From Alphaproteobacteria bacterium (GTDB lineage: Bacteria > Pseudomonadota > Alphaproteobacteria > Sphingomonadales > Sphingomonadaceae): a DNA stretch of 18,024 bases. Within the stretch, counting starts at the first letter, position 1. Every line of letters begins with the position of its first letter. The notes under the pieces are model-generated. The model did not search any database. It was not told where the DNA came from and was given only the letters and a program-made list of their open reading frames with translations. The DNA is taken from positions 1 to 18,024 of the forward strand of contig JAQGLD010000005.1 of NCBI GenBank assembly GCA_028293055.1, written 5' to 3'. The translations under genes were made by a program, and so were the position numbers. Below are positions 2,051 through 17,887 of this stretch, piece by piece.

Positions 2051-4447
<2,397 letters not shown>

Positions 4448-4461
4448 GGATGGTCTCCTGT

Positions 4462-5298
4462 TCAATTCGTTGCTTGGGTTTCGCGTACGCGCGGCAGGGT
4501 CGCCGCAAAGTCTCGGACGGTCCGGTTGAAGAGCTCGGGCTGCTCGATATGCGGCGAATGGCCCGACCGATCGAAGGCGACGGCGTGCGCATTCGGAAGC
4601 GCAGCGACGAGATGATCCGCGGTGTCGGCGCCGTAGAGGTGGCTGTTGGTGCCGTGGACGATCAATGTCGGCTGCCGGATCAAAGGCAGGAGCGGCCGGA
4701 AATCCTCGGCGACGAGCGATGCCCAGGTGGCGCCGATCTCCGCGGGATCGTTGCGCGCGAATGCCTCGCCGGCCCAGGCCCGCAAGGATTCGCGATCCTC
4801 GCCTTCGGGCTGGGCGAAGATCGCAGCCCCGGCGCTTTGCGCGAAGCTTTTGAAATCGCAGCGGATCGCATCGGCACGGGCCGAGCAATGCTCCTGCGAC
4901 AGGCCGAGCGACCAATCCTCGTCGTTGAGCACCCTTGGGGTCATGTCGATGACGATCGCCGCGGAGAATCGATCACCGGCGGGGCCGGTCAGCACATGCC
5001 AGAGCACCGATGCTCCGAGCGACCAGCCGATCCCGATCGCGTCCCGGACATCGAGCGCCTCGAGCAATTCCTCGATATCGGCCGCCATGCGGCGGACCGT
5101 CGCGGCCTGCGAACCGCTGCGCGATTCGCCGTGGCCGCGCAGATCCACCGAGATGATTCTGAAATCCGCTTCGAGCTCGGACTGGGCGGCGAAGAAGCTG
5201 CGATTCGCCATCAGGCCGTGGAGCAGGACCAGCGCCCTGCCTTCGCCATCGTCGGCGAAAGCGATGCGCGCGCCATCCGATGTTTCGAACTGCCCCAA
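4462..5298 (-). CDS. Alpha/beta hydrolase
   Basis: Cytoplasmic alpha/beta-fold hydrolase of 278 residues, without a signal peptide. It shows the oxyanion-side LLHGLM motif (about 25-30), the nucleophile elbow GWSLG with Ser93, and the catalytic His247 in SGHSPHIEQPE. The usual acid position reads HGTNSHLYG (215-223), so Asn218 stands where many relatives have Asp; Asp225 could serve instead. The start is TTG at 5298: the preceding in-frame codon is a TGA stop and GGGGAGG lies six bases upstream, so no earlier start is possible. It is the first gene of an operon with the TonB receptor (14-base gap) and the MFS permease, and probably cleaves an ester, lactone or C-C bond of the imported compound. 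Substrate is unknown. Confidence 0.9.
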   Translation of the reverse strand: MGQFETSDGARIAFADDGEGRALVLLHGLMANRSFFAAQSELEADFRIISVDLRGHGESRSGSQAATVRRMAADIEELLEALDVRDAIGIGWSLGASVLWHVLTGPAGDRFSAAIVIDMTPRVLNDEDWSLGLSQEHCSARADAIRCDFKSFAQSAGAAIFAQPEGEDRESLRAWAGEAFARNDPAEIGATWASLVAEDFRPLLPLIRQPTLIVHGTNSHLYGADTADHLVAALPNAHAVAFDRSGHSPHIEQPELFNRTVRDFAATLPRVRETQATN

Positions 5299-6418: not shown

Positions 6419-9400
6419 CTAGACGATGAAGACCGAGGGATCGATCGTCGTCTGGTGGGCGATGATGATTTCGAAATCGGGCACCGCATCCGCATTGACA
6501 TCGCCGAAGATGTGCAGGTTCCCGTCGATCACTTCGCCGCGCAGCTCGCCGCCGGCGCCGCTGAACGCGGCCGAACCGATCCAGTGAAAGCCTTCGTCGC
6601 CAGGCGTGCGGGTGTCGGCATCGAGCGCCGACAGGTCGATGCGGTCGGTCCCGTTCTGGAAATCGTCGATCGTATCGGCCTGGCCCGGGGCGCTGTCGGT
6701 CACCGCCGCCCAGCGAAACGTGTCGGCCCCGCCATTGCCGGTGAGATGGTTGACCGCCTGGTTCGCGATCAGAGTGTCGCCTGCCGCGCCGCCGATCGCG
6801 TTCTCGATCAGCGAATGGGGATCATTATTGTAAAGCAACGCATTGGCGACATTGCCGCGCGCCATATGGCCAAGACCGAGATTGGCGAGCTGGATCTGCG
6901 AGGTGGTCGTCCACTCGCCGGGACGAAGGTCGATCGTCACCGGGTTGCCGTAATTGGACAGGTCGTACGTATCGTTGCCGCCGCCGTCCCAGATCGTCAT
7001 GAAGACGCGGTTCGCGCCAGGCATTCCCTGGCCGACGCCATTGATCGACATCTGCCCGGTAGTCGTGCTCCAGCTGTAGACGGTGTCGCCGGCATTCGTG
7101 GTGAAATCGGCGCCGTACATGCGCTGCAGCGCGGCGATGTCGTACATCATGTAGGTCTGAGGATAGCCAAACGTCTCGTTGCGATAGCCGTCGAGCGAGG
7201 CGCCCGGAAACGACCGATAGGTCATTACCGAATATTCGAGCGAGTCCCGGTCGGGGCTTAGGGCGAACGGAAATTCGTGGCCGTGCTTGAGGCCGAGGGC
7301 GTGGCCGGTCTCGTGGATGATCGAGACATAGGCGTAATTGCCGAGCACCGGATTGCTGTACTTGCTGCCCGAGAAGCGGAACCAGGCGTCGCCGCCGATC
7401 GGATCGCCGAAGCCGCCGCTGGGGCTGGTCGTCGGATAGAAGGCGTAGGCCGTCGTGAGGTCGGTCTTGTCGCTCATGCCGTAACGGATCACCGCGCTTC
7501 CGCGATTGCTGGTCAGCTCGGAGAAGCTGAGGTCGGTCAGTGCCGACAGGTTGGCGAAATTGGTCCGAGCTGTCGCTTGCTGGGCGATATTGAACGCATG
7601 GAACGTCGCGATCTCGCTGTTCGCCGGATAATCCGGATAGTCGCTCGTGCTCGTCGGGAAACTGTAGGTCAGAGCCGTCTGCGGCCATTGCGCGCCGCTG
7701 ATCAGCGCCTCGATATTCTCTTCCTGGATCTGCGCTGCGCTGACCGCGGGCCCGATGCTGACCTGAAGATCGTAGCTGCCGTGCGTGGTCGTCTCCGGAT
7801 GATCCGGATCCTTGAAGGCCTCGACGGTGAAGGTGTAGGTGCCGCTCGTCTGCGCTCGAAAGGCGAGCATCGAATCCGTCGTATGAGGATCCTGGGCGTA
7901 GGCGCCGTTCGGGTCCGAGCCCGGATCGTCGAAGCCGGGATCGTCGTCCTGGGCGACCTGCGCCCCGCCCGGGGCGTAGACTGTGACCAGCGCATCCACG
8001 CCGCCTGCCGGGCTGTGATCGACATCGAGGATGAGCCGCTCGCCGGCGTTCAGCGTGATCGTGTAATAATCGACGTCGGAAGGAGTCGCGATATTCGCCC
8101 GGATCGTCGCCGACGGCAAAGTCGGGTCGACCAGGTCAGGATTGTTCGCGACTCCGAACAGGCCGCGGTCGATCGCCTGGGCGGAACTGGTCGAGTCATT
8201 GGGCTCGATCTCCGCGATCACTGGAGTCGTCGGCACCGGCACCACGATAAGCTGCGAATTGGCCATTCCGATCGTGTAGCCGGTCGTGACCCTCGCATTG
8301 ATCGCCATGTCGGCGACTCCGTCGCCGTTCACATCGGCCTCGATCAGCCAGACGCTGCCGCCGGAGCTGGTCGCTCGAAGCTCCCCAGCGGCGCCGCTGA
8401 ACGCGTTGGCGCCGACGAAGGTGAAGCTCTCCTTGGCATCGGTCAGGCTGTTCGCGTCGATCGAGCCGAGGTCGATGACATCGCCGACCGCGAAATCGGT
8501 AATGAAATCCTTGGCTGTCGAAGTCGATTCGGCGACCGAGTGGTAGAGAAAGGTGTCGTTGCCGCCATTGCCGGTCAGCGTGTCGGCGCCGAGGCCGCCG
8601 AAGATGATGTCTGCCCCCTGGCCGCCGATCAGGCCGTCGCTGCCGGCGCCGGAAAGGATCCGATAGGCGCCATCGGTTTCGGCATGGCCGTCGAAAAAGA
8701 CGGTTTCGTCCGCTCCGAGCGATACGCCGTTGATGTCGAGCCGCGCGCCGGCGGCGACATTGCCGTCCGCCATGGTGATCGCATAGTCGAAGCCGTCCGG
8801 GGCGATGACCCCGGTAAATTCGTTGGTGTGGCCCGAGAGCAAGGCGAGCACCTCGACATTGGTCAGGCTGGCATTGTCGAAATAGACCGAATTGTTCGGA
8901 TGGAACGGGGCGTCGGCATACCATCCGCGAAGCGCTACCGTATCCACCCCGCCGCCGCCGTCGATCCGGTCGGCGCCGGTCAGATTGTCGTCTGCCCCGA
9001 AGAAGAACCCGTCGGACCCGGCGCCCCCGGTATAGGCGTCGGTTCCGGTCCCGGCGTAGATCCGGAAATTCCCGTCGCTTTCGGCGGCGCCATTGAACGT
9101 CACACTTTCGTTCGACTGGAGGCCGGTCGAGATCAAAGTCAGGGTCTGGCCAGCGGCGACATTGGTGTCGTTGGTCGTGATATTGTAGCTGTAGCGATTG
9201 CCGGCGGTGTCGCCGAAGCTGGCGTTGCCGCCCGAAAGCAGCAGGAATACCTCTGCGTTGCGCAGGTCGCCGAGGGCAAGCCCCGCCGAATAGTCGCCCT
9301 GGATGGCGATGGTATCCGAGCCGGCCCCGCCATCGACCGAATCCGCGCCGCTGAGCGCAGCGCCGAAATAGAAGCCGTCATCGCCGTCGAGGCCGCTGGC

Positions 9401-9493
9401 GGTGTCGTCCCCGCCGCTCTGCAGCAGGAAAGTGTCGTTGCCATTCGTCCCCGCGAACGAATCCGGCCCCGTGCCGCCAGTATAGCTACCCAC
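6419..9493 (-). CDS. Large RTX metalloprotease, M10B serralysin-like, with PPC domain
   Basis: Secreted zinc protease of 1024 residues. The catalytic domain (about 585-890) has HETGHALGLKH with zinc ligands His727, His731 and His737, catalytic Glu728, and the Met-turn SVMTY (Met757, Tyr759) of serralysins. Before it lie two copies of a roughly 120-residue RTX-like unit (about 45-165 and 166-290), a first RTX/serralysin C-terminal-like module (about 285-415) and a pre-peptidase C-terminal (PPC) domain (about 427-580). A second RTX/M10_C module closes the protein (about 890-1024), ending IDPSVFIV, an acidic residue plus hydrophobic tail as in type I secretion signals. There is no Sec signal or propeptide. 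Start: GTG at 9493, an in-frame TGA lies two codons upstream, and AAGGA is nine bases away. Typical serralysins are about half this length. The divergent type I exporter is the likely secretion route. Confidence 0.93.
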   Translation of the reverse strand: MGSYTGGTGPDSFAGTNGNDTFLLQSGGDDTASGLDGDDGFYFGAALSGADSVDGGAGSDTIAIQGDYSAGLALGDLRNAEVFLLLSGGNASFGDTAGNRYSYNITTNDTNVAAGQTLTLISTGLQSNESVTFNGAAESDGNFRIYAGTGTDAYTGGAGSDGFFFGADDNLTGADRIDGGGGVDTVALRGWYADAPFHPNNSVYFDNASLTNVEVLALLSGHTNEFTGVIAPDGFDYAITMADGNVAAGARLDINGVSLGADETVFFDGHAETDGAYRILSGAGSDGLIGGQGADIIFGGLGADTLTGNGGNDTFLYHSVAESTSTAKDFITDFAVGDVIDLGSIDANSLTDAKESFTFVGANAFSGAAGELRATSSGGSVWLIEADVNGDGVADMAINARVTTGYTIGMANSQLIVVPVPTTPVIAEIEPNDSTSSAQAIDRGLFGVANNPDLVDPTLPSATIRANIATPSDVDYYTITLNAGERLILDVDHSPAGGVDALVTVYAPGGAQVAQDDDPGFDDPGSDPNGAYAQDPHTTDSMLAFRAQTSGTYTFTVEAFKDPDHPETTTHGSYDLQVSIGPAVSAAQIQEENIEALISGAQWPQTALTYSFPTSTSDYPDYPANSEIATFHAFNIAQQATARTNFANLSALTDLSFSELTSNRGSAVIRYGMSDKTDLTTAYAFYPTTSPSGGFGDPIGGDAWFRFSGSKYSNPVLGNYAYVSIIHETGHALGLKHGHEFPFALSPDRDSLEYSVMTYRSFPGASLDGYRNETFGYPQTYMMYDIAALQRMYGADFTTNAGDTVYSWSTTTGQMSINGVGQGMPGANRVFMTIWDGGGNDTYDLSNYGNPVTIDLRPGEWTTTSQIQLANLGLGHMARGNVANALLYNNDPHSLIENAIGGAAGDTLIANQAVNHLTGNGGADTFRWAAVTDSAPGQADTIDDFQNGTDRIDLSALDADTRTPGDEGFHWIGSAAFSGAGGELRGEVIDGNLHIFGDVNADAVPDFEIIIAHQTTIDPSVFIV

Positions 9494-9764
9494 CTGATGT
9501 CATCCTTCCGACGCGCTCAGCGGCTTCATCTATCTGAAAAAACACAATTCTTCAAATAGCCGGGTGAATTATTATTAATGGAATGCCGCTCCCCGAGGGT
9601 GGAAATGGTCCGCTTCAGCGGCTAGGAGGAGCGCCGCGCGACCGGCCGGTGTCTGGGCGCGACGGACGGCGAAAGCCCGCTTTTTGGACTGGGAACCATA
9701 TCCTAGTCTTTTGAAGGAGGTGGCGTTAAAGCCGCTGACGGCGGGCAGGGTAAACGGAAACAAT
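9494..9764. promoter_or_regulatory. Divergent control region between protease and exporter operons
   Basis: This 271-base gap separates two head-to-head operons. It contains an AT-rich island (about 9535-9580) in otherwise GC-rich DNA. Rightward, TATTAT (9570-9575) could be a -10 box with TTCTTC 16 bases upstream. Leftward, the same island offers TTGAAG followed after 17 bases by TAGATG, a weak match. Near the exporter gene a strong AAGGAGG (9714-9720) has no start codon at a suitable distance, since an in-frame GTG overlaps its last base. No regulator-binding site could be named. Boxes are pattern calls only. Confidence 0.4.
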
Positions 9765-11177
9765 ATGCGTAATATTGCACGAGCGCTCTCACTGGCGCTG
9801 CCGCTCTCTCTATATGCGACAGGCGCGCTCGCACAGTCGGCTCCGCCCAGCCTGCCCGCGCCCTCGTCCGATCCGCTGCAGATCGACATTTCGAAGGATC
9901 CCATCCTTCTGCTCGCGCGGGAAGAAGCGCCGCGCCAGCTGTTCAATGCCACTATTGCCGCTGCGGTGGAACATCATCCCGCAACCCAGGAAGCCATCGC
10001 GCTCACCGCGCAGGCCGGCTCGGTGATCGACGAGGCGATCGAGCGGCGGATGCCTTCGGTCGATGTCAATGTGACCTCCTATCGAGTGATCGCGAGGGAT
10101 TTCTCGAACGACCCCAACAACATCATCGAGCGGTCCCGGGCCAGCCAGCGCACCGACGCGTCGCTCCAGATCAACCAGAACATCCTCGATTTCGGCGCCA
10201 GCGGCAGCCGGGTCAATTCGGCACGGGCGCGCTTCCGCTCCGCCGCCGCCGACGCCGAAGGCAATGCCGAGCAGACCGCGATGAACGGAATCTCGGCGTG
10301 GTACGATGTGTTCGCCTATCGCGCGCTGGTCACCCTCAGCGAAGCCTTCGTCAAGAACCAGCAGGAGCTGCGCGAGGCGGTTGCCGAACGGATCCGCCAG
10401 GGCGTCTCGGCGCAGGGCGATACCGCTCGGGTCGATTCCTATCTCGCTTCGGCCCAGACCCGATTGGCCTCCTTCCGCCGCCAGCTGTCCAGCGCAGAGG
10501 CGCGGCTGTCCGAGCTGACCGGAACGCCGCCACCGGCCCAGGTGCTGCAGCCGCCCGCGCCGCTGATGCCGACCATGACCCAGGACGCGGTTGCGATGGC
10601 CTCGATGCGCGGCTCGGCCTCGCGTTCCGCCCAGGCGCTCGCTGACTCCGCCCGCCAGGAGGCGCGCGCCTCGCGGGCCGACCGCCTGCCGCAGATCGGG
10701 GTCGGCATCGATGCCGGCCGCTACGGCGTGTTCGAGAACGCAACCGACTTCGACATTCGCGGGCTGGTGACGATGCGCCAGCATCTGTTCGGCGGAACCG
10801 AGGCGCGGTTGGCCCAGGCCCAGGCCAAGGCCCGCTCCGCAGACGCGCATGCCGCCCGAATCCGCGAGGAATCCGCCCGCGATGCCTCGATTGCCTGGTC
10901 GGACGTGCGTGCGCTGGAGGAGCAGCTCACGGCGATGGAGGCGAGCTACATCGCCTCGCGGCGCTCGCGCGATGTGCTGATCGAGCGGTTCATCAATTCA
11001 CGCGGCGACCTGTTCGACGTTGTCCAGTCCGAAAGCTCCTATTTCGAGACCGCAACCTCCTATATACAGGCCCTGACGCAGCTCGGCGCAGCGCGTTATA
11101 TTTTGCTCGCCCGCATGGGCCAGCTTCTGCCCACCTTGGGCATCGAACCAGAGAAAGTTGGTGGTCGCAGTGAGTAG
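9765..11177 (+). CDS. TolC-family outer-membrane protein of a type I secretion system
   Basis: Outer-membrane channel component, 470 residues. The chosen ATG at 9765 puts a clear Sec signal peptide at the N-terminus (MRNIARALSLALPL, cleavage after GALA). In-frame TTG (9711) and GTG (9720) starts exist but would mask it, although the ribosome site before ATG is weak. The mature protein has two long helical repeats with TolC-type features: FNATIAAAVEHHPATQEA near the start, LDFGASGSRVNSARARF, then the second half with FGGTEARLAQAQAKARSADAH and a C-terminal segment GDLFDVVQSESSYFETATSY. It overlaps the following ABC transporter gene by several bases, so the two are translationally coupled. In the complex it docks with the HlyD-like adaptor to carry the substrate across the outer membrane in one step. 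Confidence 0.92.
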   Translation: MRNIARALSLALPLSLYATGALAQSAPPSLPAPSSDPLQIDISKDPILLLAREEAPRQLFNATIAAAVEHHPATQEAIALTAQAGSVIDEAIERRMPSVDVNVTSYRVIARDFSNDPNNIIERSRASQRTDASLQINQNILDFGASGSRVNSARARFRSAAADAEGNAEQTAMNGISAWYDVFAYRALVTLSEAFVKNQQELREAVAERIRQGVSAQGDTARVDSYLASAQTRLASFRRQLSSAEARLSELTGTPPPAQVLQPPAPLMPTMTQDAVAMASMRGSASRSAQALADSARQEARASRADRLPQIGVGIDAGRYGVFENATDFDIRGLVTMRQHLFGGTEARLAQAQAKARSADAHAARIREESARDASIAWSDVRALEEQLTAMEASYIASRRSRDVLIERFINSRGDLFDVVQSESSYFETATSYIQALTQLGAARYILLARMGQLLPTLGIEPEKVGGRSE

Positions 11178-12897
11178 CGAACCCTTCATCCGCGTCCCCA
11201 AGCCGCGCTTCGCGGCCTGGCTGATGGAGCCGATGCGGCGCAATCGGCCGATCTACCTCAAGGTCGCGATGGCGGCGGTGATGATCAACCTGTTCGGGCT
11301 GGTGACCTCTTTGTTCACGATGACGGTCTATGACCGGGTCGTTCCGAACAATGCCACTTCGTCGCTGGTCGCCTTGACCATCGGCTTCGTCATCGTCGTC
11401 GTCTTCGACTTCATCCTGAAGCTGGTGCGCGCCTATTTCGTAGACGTCGCCGGCGCCTCGATCGACAAGGAGATCGGCTCGACCCTTTTCCAGCGGCTGC
11501 TGTCGATTCGGCTCGAGCTCAAGAAGGGCTCGACCGGAACCCTGACCGGCCTGATGCGCGAGCTCGAGGCGCTTCGCGACTTCTTCGCCTCGGCGACGAT
11601 GACCGCGATCGTCGACCTGCCCTTCATCTTCCTGACCCTCGCCCTGGTCGCGATCATCGGCGGCAAGGTCGTGTTCGTGCCGCTGGCGATGATCCCGCTG
11701 GTCGTGCTCGTCGGCCTGCTCACCCAGCCGGCGATGGACCGGCTCTCCGCCCGCTCGATGGGGGAGAGCCTGGCCAAGCAGTCGGTGCTGATCGAGGCGA
11801 TCGGCGGCCTCGAGACGGTCAAGGCGACCGGTGCCGGTGGCCTGCTCGCCAAGCGCTGGGAACGCGCGGTCGACCTGCAGAGCCAGAGCTCGATGCGCCA
11901 GCGCCTCATCTCGAGCATCGGAGTTACGGTCGCAACCTCGGCCGGCACGGTCTCCTATGCCGGAGTGGTCATCGTCGGTGTGTCGCTGATCGCCAATCAG
12001 GAGATGACGATGGGCGGGCTCGTCGCCTGCTCGATTCTCGCCGGCCGTGCGATCGCTCCGCTCGCCCAGATTTCCAGCCTGCTGACTCGGATGACCCAGA
12101 CGCGCACCGCCTATCGGCAGCTCAACGAGCTGATGGAGATGCCCCCCGAGGGTCCCGTCGGAGAGGGGCTCAAGGTTCGCGAGCTCAAGGGCCGAATCGA
12201 GTTCCGCAACGTCAGCTTCCGCTATCCCGGGGCGCCCGAAAAGACGCTCGACGCGGTCAGCTTCACCATCGAACCCGGCGAGCGGGTCGCCTTGCTCGGT
12301 CGGGTCGGGTCCGGCAAGTCGACCATCCTGCGCCTGATCCTCGGCCTCTATCCGCCCGAAGAAGGCGTGATCCTGCTCGACGGCACCGACATCCGGCAGC
12401 TCGATATCACCGAGCTTCGCCGCCACCTCGGAGTCGCGCTGCAGGAGAGCGTGCTGCTCACCGGCTCGGTACGCGAGAATATCGCGCTCGGCCGGGATCA
12501 TGTGAACGACGAGGAATTGCTTCGCGCCGCGGAGCTGTCCGGCACGCACGGCTTCATCGGCCAGATCGCCAATGGATACGATCTCAGGCTCGCGGATCGC
12601 GGCGAAGGCCTGTCCGGCGGCCAGCGCCAGTCGATCGCCCTCGCCCGCGCCCTCGCGGGGCGGCCTCCGGTCATGCTGTTCGACGAGCCGTCGAGCGCGA
12701 TGGATCCGCAGAGCGAGACGGCTTTGATCCAGCGCCTCCACCAGGAAATGGCCGGGCGGACCATGGTTCTCGTCACCCACCGACCGCCGCTCCTGCAGCT
12801 GGTCACCCGGATCCTGCTCGTCGACGCCGGCAAGATCGTCCAGGACGGTCCCCGCGATGAAGTCCTGAAACAGATTACGCGTCCGCGAGCAGCCTGA
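11170..12897 (+). CDS. Type I secretion ABC transporter (permease-ATPase)
   Basis: Inner-membrane exporter with fused membrane and ATPase domains, about 575 residues. Six membrane segments lie in about 30-300. The ATPase has Walker A GRVGSGKST (377-385), signature LSGGQ (481-485), Walker B VMLFDE (491-496) and the H-loop THR. The membrane part (INLFGLVTSLFTMTVYDRVVPNN, DFFASATMTAIVDLPF) is closest to the LssB/LapB group of type I exporters. That group normally has an extra N-terminal C39-like domain of about 120 residues; here it is absent, giving a PrtD-like length. The start is uncertain: GTG at 11170 follows GGTGG at good spacing and overlaps the tolC-like stop by eight bases, but GTG 11161 or TTG 11158 are possible. 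The HlyD-like gene begins four bases after its stop. Confidence 0.93.
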   Translation: MSSEPFIRVPKPRFAAWLMEPMRRNRPIYLKVAMAAVMINLFGLVTSLFTMTVYDRVVPNNATSSLVALTIGFVIVVVFDFILKLVRAYFVDVAGASIDKEIGSTLFQRLLSIRLELKKGSTGTLTGLMRELEALRDFFASATMTAIVDLPFIFLTLALVAIIGGKVVFVPLAMIPLVVLVGLLTQPAMDRLSARSMGESLAKQSVLIEAIGGLETVKATGAGGLLAKRWERAVDLQSQSSMRQRLISSIGVTVATSAGTVSYAGVVIVGVSLIANQEMTMGGLVACSILAGRAIAPLAQISSLLTRMTQTRTAYRQLNELMEMPPEGPVGEGLKVRELKGRIEFRNVSFRYPGAPEKTLDAVSFTIEPGERVALLGRVGSGKSTILRLILGLYPPEEGVILLDGTDIRQLDITELRRHLGVALQESVLLTGSVRENIALGRDHVNDEELLRAAELSGTHGFIGQIANGYDLRLADRGEGLSGGQRQSIALARALAGRPPVMLFDEPSSAMDPQSETALIQRLHQEMAGRTMVLVTHRPPLLQLVTRILLVDAGKIVQDGPRDEVLKQITRPRAA

Positions 12898-12901
12898 AAT
12901 C

Positions 12902-14206
12902 ATGAACGAACACACCCATATCGAGGACCTTGCCGGCCGCATTCGGCCGCGCACCGCGTCCAACGTGCTGCTCTGGATCATCGCAGCTTTCTTCGCCTTG
13001 TTCGTCATCTGGGCGACCTTCACCAAGCTCGACCGCAGCGTCCGCGGCCAGGGCCGGGTCATCGCCAGCTCGAAGATGCAGGTCATCTCGAACCTCGAGG
13101 GCGGGATCGTCAGCGCGATCATGGTCCGCACCGGCCAGACGGTTAACAAGGGCCAGGAGCTGCTCAGGCTCGACACCACCCAGTCCGGTTCCGAGCTCGG
13201 CACCGGAGAAGCGTCGGTCGATGCGCTCAGGGCCAAGGTCGGCCGGCTGCAGGCGGAAATGGCGGGCCGCGAGCCCTCCTTCCCGGCCGCCACCTCGCCC
13301 GAGCTAGCCCGCCAGATCTCGGTCGAGCGCTCGCTCCACGCGGCCAAGATCGCCGAATTGTCGAGCGTGACCAGCGCCGGCCTCGCACGCGTCGCCCAGG
13401 CCTCCGAGGCGGTGCAGGAAGCGGAATCGACCTACCAGGCGCGAGTCGCCGCGCGCGACGCCAAGCTCGCCCAGGTGCGGATCATCCGCCCGCTCGTGGA
13501 GCGCGGGATCGAGCCGCGCATGTCGCTGATCCAGGCGCAGAGCGACTATGACGTCGCGGTCAAGGAAACCGAGGGTGCGGCAGCGACGCTGCAGCGCGCG
13601 CGCGCCGGGGTAAACGAAGCCCGCGCTGCGATGGCGCAGCAGCGCCAGACCTGGATGTCGCAGGCCGGCGCCGAGCTCACCGCCGCCCAGGCCGAGATGG
13701 GCGCGCGGTCCCAGACCCTGCCCGCGCTTCAGGAGAAGGTGGCGCGCACCGAAGTGCGGGCGCCGCTCGCCGGACGAATCAATCGGGTGTTAGTCACGAC
13801 GGTCGGCAGCGCAGTGCCCCCGGGCGCTCCGATGATCGAGATCGTCCCCTCGCACGAGGCGCTTCTGGTCGAAGCGATGGTCAAGCCGGCGGACATCGCC
13901 TTTGTCCGCATGGGCCAGCGTGCCCGGGTCAGCATCACCGCCTACGATCCTTCAGTCTATGGCTCGCTGCACGGCAATGTCGTCGCGATCTCGCCCGATG
14001 CGACCGTCAACGAGAAGACCGGCGAATCCTATTATATCGTCCAGGTGCGGACGGATTCCACCTCGCTCAAGGACCATTACGGCCACCCGCTGCCGATCGG
14101 CACCGGAATGGTCGCCGATGTCAGCCTGCTCGGCGAGAAGAGGACTATCCTCCAGTACATCCTGACCCCGATCACTCGGATCACCGAGACCGCCTTCCGC
14201 GAATAG
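12902..14206 (+). CDS. HlyD-family membrane-fusion (adaptor) protein of a type I secretion system
   Basis: Periplasmic adaptor anchored in the inner membrane, 434 residues. A short cytoplasmic tail is followed by one membrane helix (about 21-42, LLWIIAAFFALFVIW), the first half of the lipoyl-like domain (GRVIASSKMQVISNLEGGIV, GQTVNKGQELLRLD), a long alpha-helical hairpin (about 100-290, rich in Ala, Gln, Glu and Arg), the second lipoyl half (RTEVRAPLAGRINRV) and a beta-barrel region ending in the family-typical arginine-rich tail (ITRITETAFRE). It is the third and last gene of the exporter operon; the ATG is four bases after the ABC-gene stop. With its two neighbours it makes a complete tripartite type I machine, most likely serving the divergent RTX protease. 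Confidence 0.95.
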   Translation: MNEHTHIEDLAGRIRPRTASNVLLWIIAAFFALFVIWATFTKLDRSVRGQGRVIASSKMQVISNLEGGIVSAIMVRTGQTVNKGQELLRLDTTQSGSELGTGEASVDALRAKVGRLQAEMAGREPSFPAATSPELARQISVERSLHAAKIAELSSVTSAGLARVAQASEAVQEAESTYQARVAARDAKLAQVRIIRPLVERGIEPRMSLIQAQSDYDVAVKETEGAAATLQRARAGVNEARAAMAQQRQTWMSQAGAELTAAQAEMGARSQTLPALQEKVARTEVRAPLAGRINRVLVTTVGSAVPPGAPMIEIVPSHEALLVEAMVKPADIAFVRMGQRARVSITAYDPSVYGSLHGNVVAISPDATVNEKTGESYYIVQVRTDSTSLKDHYGHPLPIGTGMVADVSLLGEKRTILQYILTPITRITETAFRE

Positions 14207-14464: not shown

Positions 14465-16390
14465 TTAGCTGTTGGCGCCGCTCGCCTTGCGCACGAAATG
14501 GCCTGCGGAGACCGCCCGCAGCAGAGCGTTGCGATAGTCGCGCTCGGCCGCCGGGTCCTGCCACCCGTTGGCCGGCCAATTGTCGATCAGCGCGCCGAGT
14601 CTGCGCGTGTCGAGAATGGAGCTGGCCGGCGCGCAGTCGGCGATCCGCCGAAATTCCTCGGCGACATCGGACCGCGACCGGTCGAGGGCGACATACCAGT
14701 CGGCCGCCTGCAGCCCCTTGCGAGTCTCGGCGAGGACCGGCTCGGCCACCCGGCCGCTGAGCGCGCGGCGCGCGAGCGAGCGAGGCATTCCGCCGAGAAT
14801 GAACTGTTCGGCGGGGACTCGCAGGCAGAATTCGACAAGAGCGCGATCTGCGGTCGGATCGCGAAAGTCGAGGCCCCACCCGGCCAGCATGCCCTTGTTG
14901 TGATTGCCCGGATCGTAGCGGCGAAGCGCCGCGAGCCTGATCTCGGCCGAGCCCTGGCGCGGGCCCAATTTGGTGTCGAGCCCACGCGCCCTGGCGCGGT
15001 CCTCCAAGCCCTGCTCGAGCTCGGGATTGACGCAGCTGTCCGCGATCAGGTCCTGCGGCCGCCGCTTGAATGCCTTGAGCATGGCCTTCCAGGCGCCGCG
15101 TGACAGATGCGGCCCGATCACCGAGCCGGCGATTCGCGCCGCCGTCCAGCCATTGCGGTGGAGCCCCATGGCGAGCGGCAGCAGCTTGAGCCAGCGGCCG
15201 CTCCCGAACAGCTGGGGAAGCCACTCGACGCCCGCATAGCTGAGGCTGAGGTTGCCGGCCTGTCCGGTCAGCATCACCGCGAGCCGGCGTGCCCTGGCTT
15301 CGTCATTGATCCCGTCCCACCAGCTCATATTGGCGAGGTTGGTGACCGGTCGTTCGTAGAGGAAGAAATGGCGATCGAGCGAAGCCGCCGGCGAGCGATC
15401 CTCGGCCGTGACGGCGACATGCTCGATATTCGAATATAGCGCGGCGGTCGCCGACGCTAGCCCGCTCTCGTCGGCGAAAGAGCCAGCCCGCTCGATCAGG
15501 CCGGCGCCCTTGGCCGGAACCGAGGTGAAGGCGACGACCCGGCCCGAACGCGCCGCCATCAGACGGGCAGCGGAGGCACAGACGGCATTGCTGTCGAGGC
15601 CACCGCTGAGATGCGCGCCGACGTCCGATCCGACACCACGCAGCCGGCGGGCGACCGCGAGATCGAGCTTCTCACGGAGCGCTTCGACATAGGCGTCGTT
15701 CGAGCCGAGCTGGAGCGGGTCGAGCCGCGGCTGCCAATAAGGCTGGGATCGCAGCCCGTTCCGGTCGACGATGCAGACATGACCCGGCTCGACCCGGCTG
15801 ATTCCTTCGAAGAAGGTCTCGGGGCCGGTCTGCGGCATCAGCACGAGGAAATCCGCGTTCGAGGCCGGGTTCGGCGCGTAGGGTACCTCTGCCAGCGCGT
15901 GCAGGCCCTTGGGCATAGAGGCAAAGGCGAAGAAGCCCTCCCCCTGGTGGTAATGGAGCGGCCGCTGGCCGAGGAAGTCGCGTGCGAGCAGCAGCCGCTG
16001 CCGATCGCGATCCCACAGAGCAAGCGCGAAATCGCCGATCAGCCGCCCGACAAAATCGTCGCCCCACGCCTCGGCCGCGCGCAGGATCAGTGCGGCATCG
16101 CAAAGCAGGGCGCCCGTGCCCAGGCCGAGATCGGAGCACAGGGACTCGCGATTGTCGATCCGCGCATCCGCGACCAGCACGAGCCGTCCTTCGGCGCCAA
16201 CCACCGGCCCGCGATCGTAGGAGTCTTCCGGCAGCATCTTCCAGAGCGCCCGGCCCAGCGCGATGGCGCCGTCGACATGCTCGGCGGGCTTGTCCTTCGA
16301 ATAGATCGACTGGCCGCGCAGCATCCGCGCGCAATTCTCGCCGACGTCGCTGCCGCCGTCGAAACGCCAGAAACCGGACAATGCGGTCAT
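14465..16390 (-). CDS. Asparagine-synthetase-like lasso-peptide cyclase (C protein)
   Basis: A 641-residue protein with asparagine synthetase B architecture: N-terminal glutaminase-like domain (about 1-200) and C-terminal ATP-pyrophosphatase domain with SGGLDS (262-267). The N-terminus reads MTALSG where true AsnB enzymes have MCGI, so the nucleophilic Cys2 is missing and glutamine cannot be used as amide donor. This is the pattern of lasso macrolactam synthetases, which adenylate an Asp or Glu side chain of the precursor and close it onto the core N-terminus. ATG at 16390 opens the gene. It is divergent from the kinase gene, 190 bases apart. The lasso assignment rests on the missing Cys2 plus the adjacent kinase and precursor; the generic label asparagine synthase-related protein is certain. 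Confidence 0.85.
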   Translation of the reverse strand: MTALSGFWRFDGGSDVGENCARMLRGQSIYSKDKPAEHVDGAIALGRALWKMLPEDSYDRGPVVGAEGRLVLVADARIDNRESLCSDLGLGTGALLCDAALILRAAEAWGDDFVGRLIGDFALALWDRDRQRLLLARDFLGQRPLHYHQGEGFFAFASMPKGLHALAEVPYAPNPASNADFLVLMPQTGPETFFEGISRVEPGHVCIVDRNGLRSQPYWQPRLDPLQLGSNDAYVEALREKLDLAVARRLRGVGSDVGAHLSGGLDSNAVCASAARLMAARSGRVVAFTSVPAKGAGLIERAGSFADESGLASATAALYSNIEHVAVTAEDRSPAASLDRHFFLYERPVTNLANMSWWDGINDEARARRLAVMLTGQAGNLSLSYAGVEWLPQLFGSGRWLKLLPLAMGLHRNGWTAARIAGSVIGPHLSRGAWKAMLKAFKRRPQDLIADSCVNPELEQGLEDRARARGLDTKLGPRQGSAEIRLAALRRYDPGNHNKGMLAGWGLDFRDPTADRALVEFCLRVPAEQFILGGMPRSLARRALSGRVAEPVLAETRKGLQAADWYVALDRSRSDVAEEFRRIADCAPASSILDTRRLGALIDNWPANGWQDPAAERDYRNALLRAVSAGHFVRKASGANS

Positions 16391-16580: not shown

Positions 16581-17561
16581 GTGAACATAAGAACGAAGAC
16601 TATCGGGGAAGCCGGCCTGAGCCGCCGTTACAGGCTGTTCGGGCTGAGCCTGGATTCGTCCATGGAATTGCCCGAACTGCGCCCCGACGAGCGACCGCCG
16701 GCCCTTGCGGACGTGACCATTCGCAGGGCCCCGCTCCCCGAGCCGCGGCACCCGCTGACTGCGATCGGGGAATTCGTCGAACTTTCGCCGAGCGAGTTCC
16801 GCCTTACTGTGCCCGATGTCGCGCGCTTTTTCGTGCGCGACGGGCGGGAAGTGTTCGTCGAAGCCCTGCCCGGCGCGGCCGACACGGATCTCCGCGCCTA
16901 TCTGCTCGGCTCGGTGCTCGGAGCATTGGTCCATCAGGCCGGCCTGCTTCCGCTCCACGCCAGCGCGGTCGCCAGGGGCGATCAGGCCGCCGCCTTTCTC
17001 GGGGCGTCGGGGGCGGGCAAATCGACGATCGCGCATCGGCTGAGCGGCAGGGGCTTCGATCTGCTCTCCGACGATGTCTGCGTCGTCCATGCCGGCGGAA
17101 CCGGCGATGGCGCGGAGGCGGCGGCGACCGCCCTGGTCTGGCCGGGCATCCGCCAGTTCAAGCTGTGGGACAGCTCGCTGGCCGCCGCAGGCGAGAGCAA
17201 GGCGGGCCTTTCGCCGGTGCTGATGCGCGAGGACAAATTCCTGCTCCCGGCCAGCGGGCTCGCCGATGATCGTCCCCACCGGCTCGGCCTCCTCTATGTC
17301 CTCGGGCGGAGCGAGGGGACCGAAAGCCGCTTCGCCGAGCTGACCGGCCTGCAGGCGGTCAACGCTCTGGTTTCGAACACTTATCGCGGGCTCGCTTTGA
17401 ACGGGATGGGCAGGAGCGCGTGGCATTTCCGGCGCTGCACCGAACTTGCGCGCGAATGTCGAATTTTTACCTTTGCCATGGCATGGGGATTCGAACGGGC
17501 GGAGACGGCCTATGCGACGATCGAAGCCCATATGCTCGAGCAGTTCGCGCGCGGAACATAG
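16581..17561 (+). CDS. HPr-kinase-like protein, putative lasso-peptide tailoring kinase
   Basis: A 326-residue protein of the HPr kinase/phosphorylase-like family. It has the P-loop GASGAGKST (141-149), the preceding conserved His in LPLHASAV (His126), and SDD (163-165) as the Walker B-like acidic site. It lacks the N-terminal domain of classical HprK, and no phosphotransferase genes are near, so HPr itself is an unlikely substrate. Kinases of this kind in lasso clusters phosphorylate the C-terminal Ser of the precursor (established for the paeninodin system); the adjacent precursor ends in Ser. Start: GTG at 16581, just before the conserved YRLFGLSLDSSMELPEL region. The frame is open up to 16395, but that would leave almost no space for the divergent promoter and its sequence is not family-like. 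The precursor follows 112 bases downstream. Confidence 0.85.
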   Translation: MNIRTKTIGEAGLSRRYRLFGLSLDSSMELPELRPDERPPALADVTIRRAPLPEPRHPLTAIGEFVELSPSEFRLTVPDVARFFVRDGREVFVEALPGAADTDLRAYLLGSVLGALVHQAGLLPLHASAVARGDQAAAFLGASGAGKSTIAHRLSGRGFDLLSDDVCVVHAGGTGDGAEAAATALVWPGIRQFKLWDSSLAAAGESKAGLSPVLMREDKFLLPASGLADDRPHRLGLLYVLGRSEGTESRFAELTGLQAVNALVSNTYRGLALNGMGRSAWHFRRCTELARECRIFTFAMAWGFERAETAYATIEAHMLEQFARGT

Positions 17562-17673: not shown

Positions 17674-17829
17674 ATGAGAGAAGATCAGGGCATTGAGCGC
17701 GGCGCCCAGACGAGCGCTGACACTCGCCTGCAGTGGGTCAAGCCGGAAGTGCGTCGCATGTCGGCGGGCGATGCCGAGAGCGGCTTCCCGGGCAGCCAGA
17801 CGGACGCTCCGTTCGTTACAACTTCCTGA
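17674..17829 (+). CDS. Putative lasso-peptide precursor (51 residues)
   Basis: Short gene directly after the kinase, started by ATG behind AAGGGGA. The leader contains W21-V-K-P24-E-V26, matching the YxxPxL element that lasso recognition (RRE) proteins bind, followed by RRMSAGDAE. The predicted core is GFPGSQTDAPFVTTS (37-51): Gly1 to Asp8 would give an eight-membered ring; a core starting at Ser36 would give Ser1 to Asp9. The residue two before Gly37 is Glu35, not the usual Thr. The last residue is Ser51, the site expected for phosphorylation by the neighbouring kinase. A divergent lasso cyclase, a kinase upstream and a terminator 26 bases downstream support this as a real gene. It shares no recognised protein domain; the call rests on motifs and context. 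Confidence 0.78.
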   Translation: MREDQGIERGAQTSADTRLQWVKPEVRRMSAGDAESGFPGSQTDAPFVTTS

Positions 17830-17855
17830 TTTAGATCAGCGAGTTCGAAAAGAAG

Positions 17856-17887
17856 GGCCGCTCCAACCTGGTTGGAGCGGCCTTTTT
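17856..17887 (+). terminator. Strong rho-independent terminator after the precursor gene
   Basis: GGCCGCTCCAACC (17856-17868) and GGTTGGAGCGGCC (17870-17882) form a perfect 13-bp stem around a single T, so the tip opens to a short loop, and TTTTT follows. The stem extends by A-T pairs into the flanking AAG and TTT. A purine-rich AAAAGAA on the left side could also let it work in the other direction. It closes the precursor transcript 26 bases after the stop codon. Confidence 0.9.

Follow-up and report, generated by a model that had tools for sequence, protein, structure and literature searches.

A candidate precursor gene for a kinase-type lasso peptide in a soil-type bacterium

Genes and features of the locus

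The window analyzed here spans all 18,024 bases of contig C352, which belongs to a MAG of 3.6 Mb in 644 contigs that is 82% complete with 4.4% contamination. The following genes and features are located in the window.

3-740, + strand: class II aldolase
737-2023, - strand: MFS transporter
2051-4915, - strand: TonB-dependent receptor, start uncertain
4462-5298, - strand: alpha/beta hydrolase
6419-9493, - strand: RTX protein with serralysin-like metallopeptidase and M10_C domains
9684-11177, + strand: TolC-like outer-membrane channel, possible exporter
11158-12897, + strand: ABC transporter of type I secretion, possible exporter, above the TIGR03375 cut-off
12902-14206, + strand: HlyD-type adaptor of a type I secretion system, possible exporter
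14465-16390, - strand: homologue of lasso cyclase C with an asparagine-synthetase fold, without Cys2 and with SGGLDS kept
16581-17561, + strand: HPr-kinase-like lasso kinase K; the frame is open from 16395, with GTG at 16581 as the probable start
17674-17829, + strand: putative precursor gene A, 51 aa and a stop codon at 17827-17829
17674-17778, + strand: leader of A, codons 1-35
17734-17751, + strand: leader motif W-V-K-P-E-V, residues 21-26, predicted B1 docking site
17764-17778, + strand: leader end A-G-D-A-E, with Ala34 at -2 and Glu35 at -1
17779-17826, + strand: favoured core of A, codons 36-51
17803-17805, + strand: Asp44, predicted to close the ring, at position 9 of the core, or at 8 with a core that begins at Gly37
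17824-17826, + strand: C-terminal Ser51, predicted phosphorylation site, based on conservation and an inferred role
about 17851-17887, + strand: intrinsic terminator 3' of A, a hairpin followed by a T run

The frame of A is translated as MREDQGIERGAQTSADTRLQWVKPEVRRMSAGDAESGFPGSQTDAPFVTTS, and the ribosome-site-like stretch AAGGGGAAG is seen just 5' of its ATG. A sits between the kinase gene, which ends 112 bp upstream, and the strong terminator, whose hairpin has a folding energy of -30.5 kcal/mol (z -5.4) and was not equalled in stability by any of 200 shuffled sequences. Because this strong hairpin and the T run lie downstream, the transcription unit very probably ends 3' of A. The end of the window is 195 bp from the end of A.

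The original prediction proposed a search with the 51-residue sequence. Among about 5.8 billion proteins, 17 homologues besides the query were found (E 4e-21 to 1e-9, 66-92% identical), which supports the frame as a real gene. All of them come from metagenomic or genomic contigs, and none of the 17 has a functional name. The same protein as A is also encoded on a 135,983-base metagenome contig. Neither a Pfam nor an NCBIfam family matched the 51-mer. The alignment of the query and its 17 homologues contains 20 invariant columns, including W21, P24, V26, A31-G40, D44, A45, V48, T50 and S51. Thus the stretch AGDAESGFPG is kept in all homologues, together with Trp and Pro of the leader motif, the core Asp and the C-terminal Ser, while the N-terminal half of the leader and core residues 42-43 are variable. 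Asp44 is the sole acidic residue C-terminal to Glu35. The core is almost unchanged in metagenomes; therefore, the peptide is not unique to the source genome.

The putative kinase K follows the pattern H-x14-G-x2-G-x-G-K-S...D-D. Residues H126, G141, G144, G146, K147, S148 and D165 (the second D) are invariant among K and eight relatives. In the available part of PMC10368454, the tested lasso kinase BsfK has H148-G163-G166-G168-K169-S170-D187, and the spacing of the active-site residues in K is the same. The score of K is below the NCBIfam cut-off, as is that of the kinase in the complete cluster of G002, a genome of the same genus. A PDB sequence search with K gave nothing convincing.

The gene of C is divergent from K and lies about 1.3 kb from A. 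Its product starts with Met-Thr and thus has no Cys2. The best NCBIfam model is that of the lasso cyclase (NF033535), with 265.8 bits against a cut-off of 525; the cyclase of the complete G002 cluster is also below its cut-off. A PDB sequence search with C matched only hydroxyamidotransferase and AsnB. Named relatives of C are found on Tistrella mobilis pTM1 and on Azospirillum plasmids with an annotated lasso B2. The search of a plasmid collection with C returned 247 records, of which four regions were examined. In Tistrella pTM3, the best plasmid match to C, a motif search revealed no precursor-like frame.

These observations agree with the original description of the locus, which had combined a W-x-x-P-x-V leader motif, one Asp at ring distance (position 9 or 8, invariant in 18/18) and a C-terminal Ser (18/18) with an HPr-kinase-like gene immediately upstream and a Cys2-less asparagine-synthetase homologue nearby. 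Homologues without the Asp and the final Ser would have spoken against it; both residues are retained in the close homologues, and in the wider set described below an acidic residue at ring distance is present in all 120 and the final Ser in 118.

The wider precursor family and the register of the core

With the query A1, a match at E 0.01 was obtained in ten of 60 related genomes, the query's own included. Twelve stretches from nine other genomes were examined for precursor frames. All 13 frames in these stretches contain W-x-x-P-x-[V/L/M] and end in Ser. In each, the Trp is followed 13 residues later by an Ala, and an acidic residue comes 8 or 9 residues past the position following this Ala. 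The match on contig C5 of G002, with three internal stops, and the match in G071, with one stop, were left out of the relatives. Scans of contigs with the kinase and with A1 each returned 97 pattern matches, none of which was confirmed as a relative.

The search with the wider alignment A2 matched 152 proteins, and the counts given here cover the best 120 of these 152. Ala is present at -2 in 120/120 and the leader Trp in 120/120; Trp and Pro of the leader motif are invariant in the 20 sequences of A2. As the A2 profile holds W, P and this Ala invariant, the counts of those three are partly built in, and the fairly independent evidence comes only from the ring acid, the first core residue and the last residue. 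Residue -1 is Glu in 114, Gln in 4, Arg in 1 and Lys in 1. The first core residue is Ala in 74, Ser in 32, Thr in 4 and another residue in 10. Asp or Glu occupies core position 8 or 9 in 120/120, and both positions in 10. The C-terminal residue is Ser in 118/120 and Pro in the remaining two, which are the Tistrella pair. When these relatives are reduced to 87 distinct cores, the acid at position 8 or 9 is seen in 87/87 and the final Ser in 85/87, and other acidic residues in the core are rare.

A core starting directly after A-E gives 8- or 9-membered rings, with Ala or Ser first in 106 of the best 120 of 152 relatives. On this basis the 16-mer SGFPGSQTDAPFVTTS is preferred as the core of A, with a predicted ring between Ser1 and Asp9; it is better supported than the 15-mer starting at Gly37. 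The original prediction allowed 15 or 16 residues, so the longer form is kept here and the shorter one is less supported. The tail of A contains one bulky residue, Phe47, and a plug is for this reason not obvious. The commonest relatives among the matches listed, ..NDGGPVGNARS, are likewise poor in bulky tail residues.

No Pfam or NCBIfam model matched the precursors of the A family, and annotation by family models consequently overlooks them. The 152 matched proteins, 120 of them listed, enlarge the set of unannotated lasso precursors. In the accessible portion of the open literature on kinase, penultimate-residue and orphan or in-trans lasso peptides, a scope that takes in few subscription papers, the family is not described. 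The papers compared, as far as their text was available, are PMC10368454, PMC9266682, PMC13381572, PMC5067487, PMC12670498 and PMC13352647. A literature search for lasso peptides with RTX or type I secretion, or in Allosphingosinicella, gave no relevant match.

Processing genes elsewhere in the genome and RTX neighbours

B1 and B2 genes are absent from the 18,024-base window. Their presence in the genome was essential to the original prediction, and candidates for both are found on other contigs of the MAG. PqqD proteins over the PF05402 cut-off are encoded on C188 and C409. For the C188 protein the best NCBIfam model is lasso_PqqD_Bac, with 62.3 bits, which is below the cut-off of 80; the B1 proteins of G002 (46.7) and G021 (65.6), used for comparison, are also below it. 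An N gene (NTP_transf_5) directly follows B1 on C188. The reading of the C188 PqqD as a PQQ-operon gene was dropped in view of the lasso-type B1 match and this adjoining N gene. The C409 protein is an HPr-rel-A PqqD, above the cut-off of that model. PF13471 matches are located on C313 and C364, both above the lasso B2 cut-off. Thus A, C, K, B1, N and B2 are all present in the MAG, on separate contigs. The separation of B1 and B2 from A could reflect either action in trans or a break in the assembly, two cases that look the same in MAG data.

On C313 (L036), the C-terminal part of a B protein exceeds the lasso B2 cut-off and is followed by an asparagine-synthetase-type cyclase; no precursor was identified there. 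On C364 (L038), the genes around B2 are of polysaccharide type; its neighbours are an ABC transporter on one side and, on the other, an asparagine synthase that exceeds the TIGR01536 cut-off. Given these polysaccharide-type genes and the different synthetase, the C364 B2 may serve something other than A.

G002 has a complete cluster: about 5 kb of one strand holds B2, K, B1, C, N and A, and an ABC gene lies on the opposite strand. Its C is 51% identical to that of the window, and the kinases are related. B2 of G002 is above the cut-offs of PF13471 and NF033537 (66.8 against 33 for the latter), and its N matches PF14907. B1 and C are best matched by lasso_PqqD_Bac and the lasso cyclase model, respectively, each below the cut-off.

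Gene content was compared among 25 precursor-bearing stretches, which include G002-type loci, plasmids and complete genomes from the family search. Several of them are cut by contig ends, and genes were called by codon usage. C is present in 16 stretches, K in 11, B1 in 8 and B2 in 5; both B1 and B2 occur in 5 and neither in 17. Precursors are present in at least 8 of 397 complete genomes (17 first-look candidates were scored per genome). The A family can be regarded as a large set of putative lasso precursors whose processing enzymes are often encoded elsewhere in the genome.

G021, assembled as one contig, contains A genes at 611,100, 698,678 and 2,600,736. It has a single B2 at 2,612,384, a single PqqD (B1) at 2,614,702 and a single C at 2,612,788 with 949 bits, the next synthetase reaching 177 bits. 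Within about 9 kb of the first two A genes there is no C, K, B1 or B2. These two have modest genome E-values (5.6e-6 and 1.8e-5), and both fit the pattern including the final Ser. Three scattered precursors against a single B1-B2-C locus suggest that the precursors of G021 are matured in trans. Trans-maturation can be tested directly in one-contig genomes of this kind, in which orphan precursors accompany a lone B1-B2-C locus. G018, which is 95% complete, contains A and C and has no PF13471 or PF05402 match; this can be explained either by missing contigs or by a different route.

RTX-like genes are seen in 10 of the 25 stretches and HlyD in 4. RTX genes, sometimes with type I ABC or HlyD genes, lie beside precursors in G250 (L060 and L061), G017 (L030), G021 (L064), G312 (L056), G002 (L024), G003 (L034) and G018 (L031), as well as at 6419-14206 of the window. 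G250 has three A genes, each directly after an RTX gene. In G017, two RTX genes are followed by A, B1, C, ABC and HlyD, all on one strand. In four genomes, 5 of 9 A genes are less than 500 bp from an RTX gene, where 0.10 would be expected (P 2e-8, or 5e-5 if the G250 trio is counted as one). Both P values are too favourable, because two of these genomes, G017 and G250, were chosen after the pattern had been seen. The RTX model, made from a pair of sequences, responds mainly to the shared secretion-type C-terminal region. The adjacency could reflect a shared exporter, co-regulation or hitch-hiking. These recurring RTX and type I neighbours are a first lead on the export and role of phosphorylated lasso peptides.

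Two candidates for leader removal were dropped. The TIGR03375 match of the window ABC transporter starts at profile position 133 and includes no N-terminal peptidase-like part, as C39-type removal would need. As for the RTX metallopeptidase, HExxH is absent from 7 of the 14 RTX proteins examined.

It can be speculated, with somewhat less than even odds, that A-G-x-A-E precursors constitute a dispersed lasso system. In such a system, one B1-B2 set per genome, often with the sole lasso cyclase, would mature scattered precursors, many of them beside RTX and type I exporters, and the products would be phosphorylated companions of type I secreted proteins.

Several plasmids and stretches show other arrangements. 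Tistrella mobilis pTM1 (L043, 7920-11293) contains C, an HPr kinase, PqqD and a 48-residue A-like precursor ending in Pro-Pro-Pro, so that the kinase adjoins a precursor without a C-terminal Ser to modify. This region is flanked by a divergent penicillin-acylase-family gene and, downstream, by a sigma/FecR/TonB-receptor set. The Azospirillum candidate precursor ends in Gly. Azospirillum plasmids (L040 and L042) carry lasso-type C, K, B1 and B2 with a 2OG-Fe(II) oxygenase or aspartyl beta-hydroxylase, a methyltransferase and tail-fibre-like genes. In L029 and L026, a precursor and a cyclase adjoin an N gene, which encodes a nucleotidyltransferase, and a gene resembling those of 2OG-Fe(II) oxygenases; neither stretch shows a kinase.

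Proposed pathway, known systems and alternative readings

Based on these features, positions 17674-17829 very probably encode the precursor of a kinase-type lasso peptide (probability about 0.86); we infer all the chemical steps from sequence. B1 would bind the W-x-x-P-x-V part of the leader, a role expected for W-V-K-P-E-V from the available parts of PMC10368454 and PMC13381572. K would phosphorylate the precursor, most likely at the C-terminal Ser; the phosphate on Ser51 is predicted by analogy with paeninodin-type kinases. B2 would cut after Glu35, and C would activate the side chain of Asp44 with ATP and join it to the new N-terminus, Ser36, giving a 9-membered ring with the tail threaded. 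Export of the product may run through a type I secretion exporter. Unless the assembly has split one cluster, B1 (with its N gene) and B2 would work in trans from the other contigs.

As described in the available parts of PMC9266682 and PMC10368454, systems with HPr-like lasso kinases have the His, the P-loop Lys and the paired Asp, separate B1 and B2, and a W/YxxP leader motif. A proteobacterial A-B1-B2-C-K-D arrangement is already noted in the accessible text of PMC5067487. The present system resembles paeninodin and SyanA/SyanK of Sphingobium yanoikuyae, in which the C-terminal Ser is phosphorylated, in its HPr-like kinase, separate candidate B1 and B2 genes, W/YxxP leader and precursor ending in Ser. 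Compared with paeninodin and SyanA by their descriptions rather than by their precursor sequences, A differs in having Ala34 at -2 and Glu at -1 instead of Thr at -2. Unlike in those clusters, C is transcribed divergently from K and A, the candidate B1 and B2 genes lie apart from A, and type I exporter genes (ABC, HlyD and TolC) and an RTX gene adjoin. The locus would work like a paeninodin-type system and is filed as a variant, because Thr is not found at -2 and B1 and B2 are linked to A only tentatively.

According to the accessible part of PMC10368454, BsfA of Bradymonas sediminis has Ile at -2, its leader removal was tested, and its cluster includes a kinase and an N gene. Ile or Val at -2 is also reported there in Sphingomonadales, and precursors with Ile, Val or Ala at -2 are cited as predicted by Kretsch et al. 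2023, so Ala at this position may not be new as such. A and K share with BsfA and BsfK the kinase motif spacing, a residue other than Thr at -2, and a kinase with an N gene. They differ in that BsfK modifies Ser3 and BsfA ends in Asp, whereas A has Ala at -2 and its conserved candidate site is the C-terminal Ser. The invariant Ala at -2 offers a natural test of how B1 and B2 read that position.

The same lasso system could be read with the leader ending at Ser36 and the core GFPGSQTDAPFVTTS, 15 residues with a ring between Gly1 and Asp8. Known lasso peptides most often begin with Gly, and the 8-membered ring is usual. Gly37 is also invariant in 18/18 close homologues. In the wider family, however, A-E is followed by Ala or Ser in 106 of the best 120 of 152 relatives, and one position further on 66 have Asn and 36 have Gly, so that a start one residue later yields 7- or 8-membered rings mostly led by Asn. 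Moreover, the Tistrella precursor has G-A-A-G-P-F-L-D directly after A-Q, corresponding to an 8-membered ring with Gly1 in the register preferred for A. The 15-mer is thus unlikely. The short tail with its one bulky residue, and the similar tails of the commonest relatives listed, would suit a branched cyclic peptide in which the isopeptide ring is formed and the tail is unthreaded; this is quite improbable, as the relatives of C and B2 belong to lasso families.

A kinase, a separate leader-binding protein (RRE), an N gene and an aromatic-xxP leader are shared with the linear polyphosphorylated peptides (LPP; LppA/K/B/S/D/N) of Bacillota, as given in the available part of PMC13381572, and 9 of the 25 precursor stretches have no cyclase. 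A linear phosphopeptide without a lasso ring is nevertheless very improbable for A. LPP clusters dispense with a cyclase and rely on an SpI-type peptidase, whereas a cyclase homologue with intact SGGLDS lies 1.3 kb from A and 16 of the 25 stretches contain one; an acid occupies core position 8 or 9 in 120/120 (best 120 of 152); and the LPP leader pattern YxxPxVLxHQxIxFETxxS is absent from A. The lack of B1 and B2 in the window and the dispersal of synthesis genes in many relatives could also indicate a decayed locus, with a precursor left after the loss of B1 and B2. Decay is the least probable of these readings and hardly to be expected: none of A, K and C is disrupted, 17 metagenomic sequences conserve A closely, and B1, N and B2 are found elsewhere in the MAG. 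For the preferred 16-mer lasso peptide, the computed [M+H]+ is 1580.72, or 1660.69 with one phosphate.
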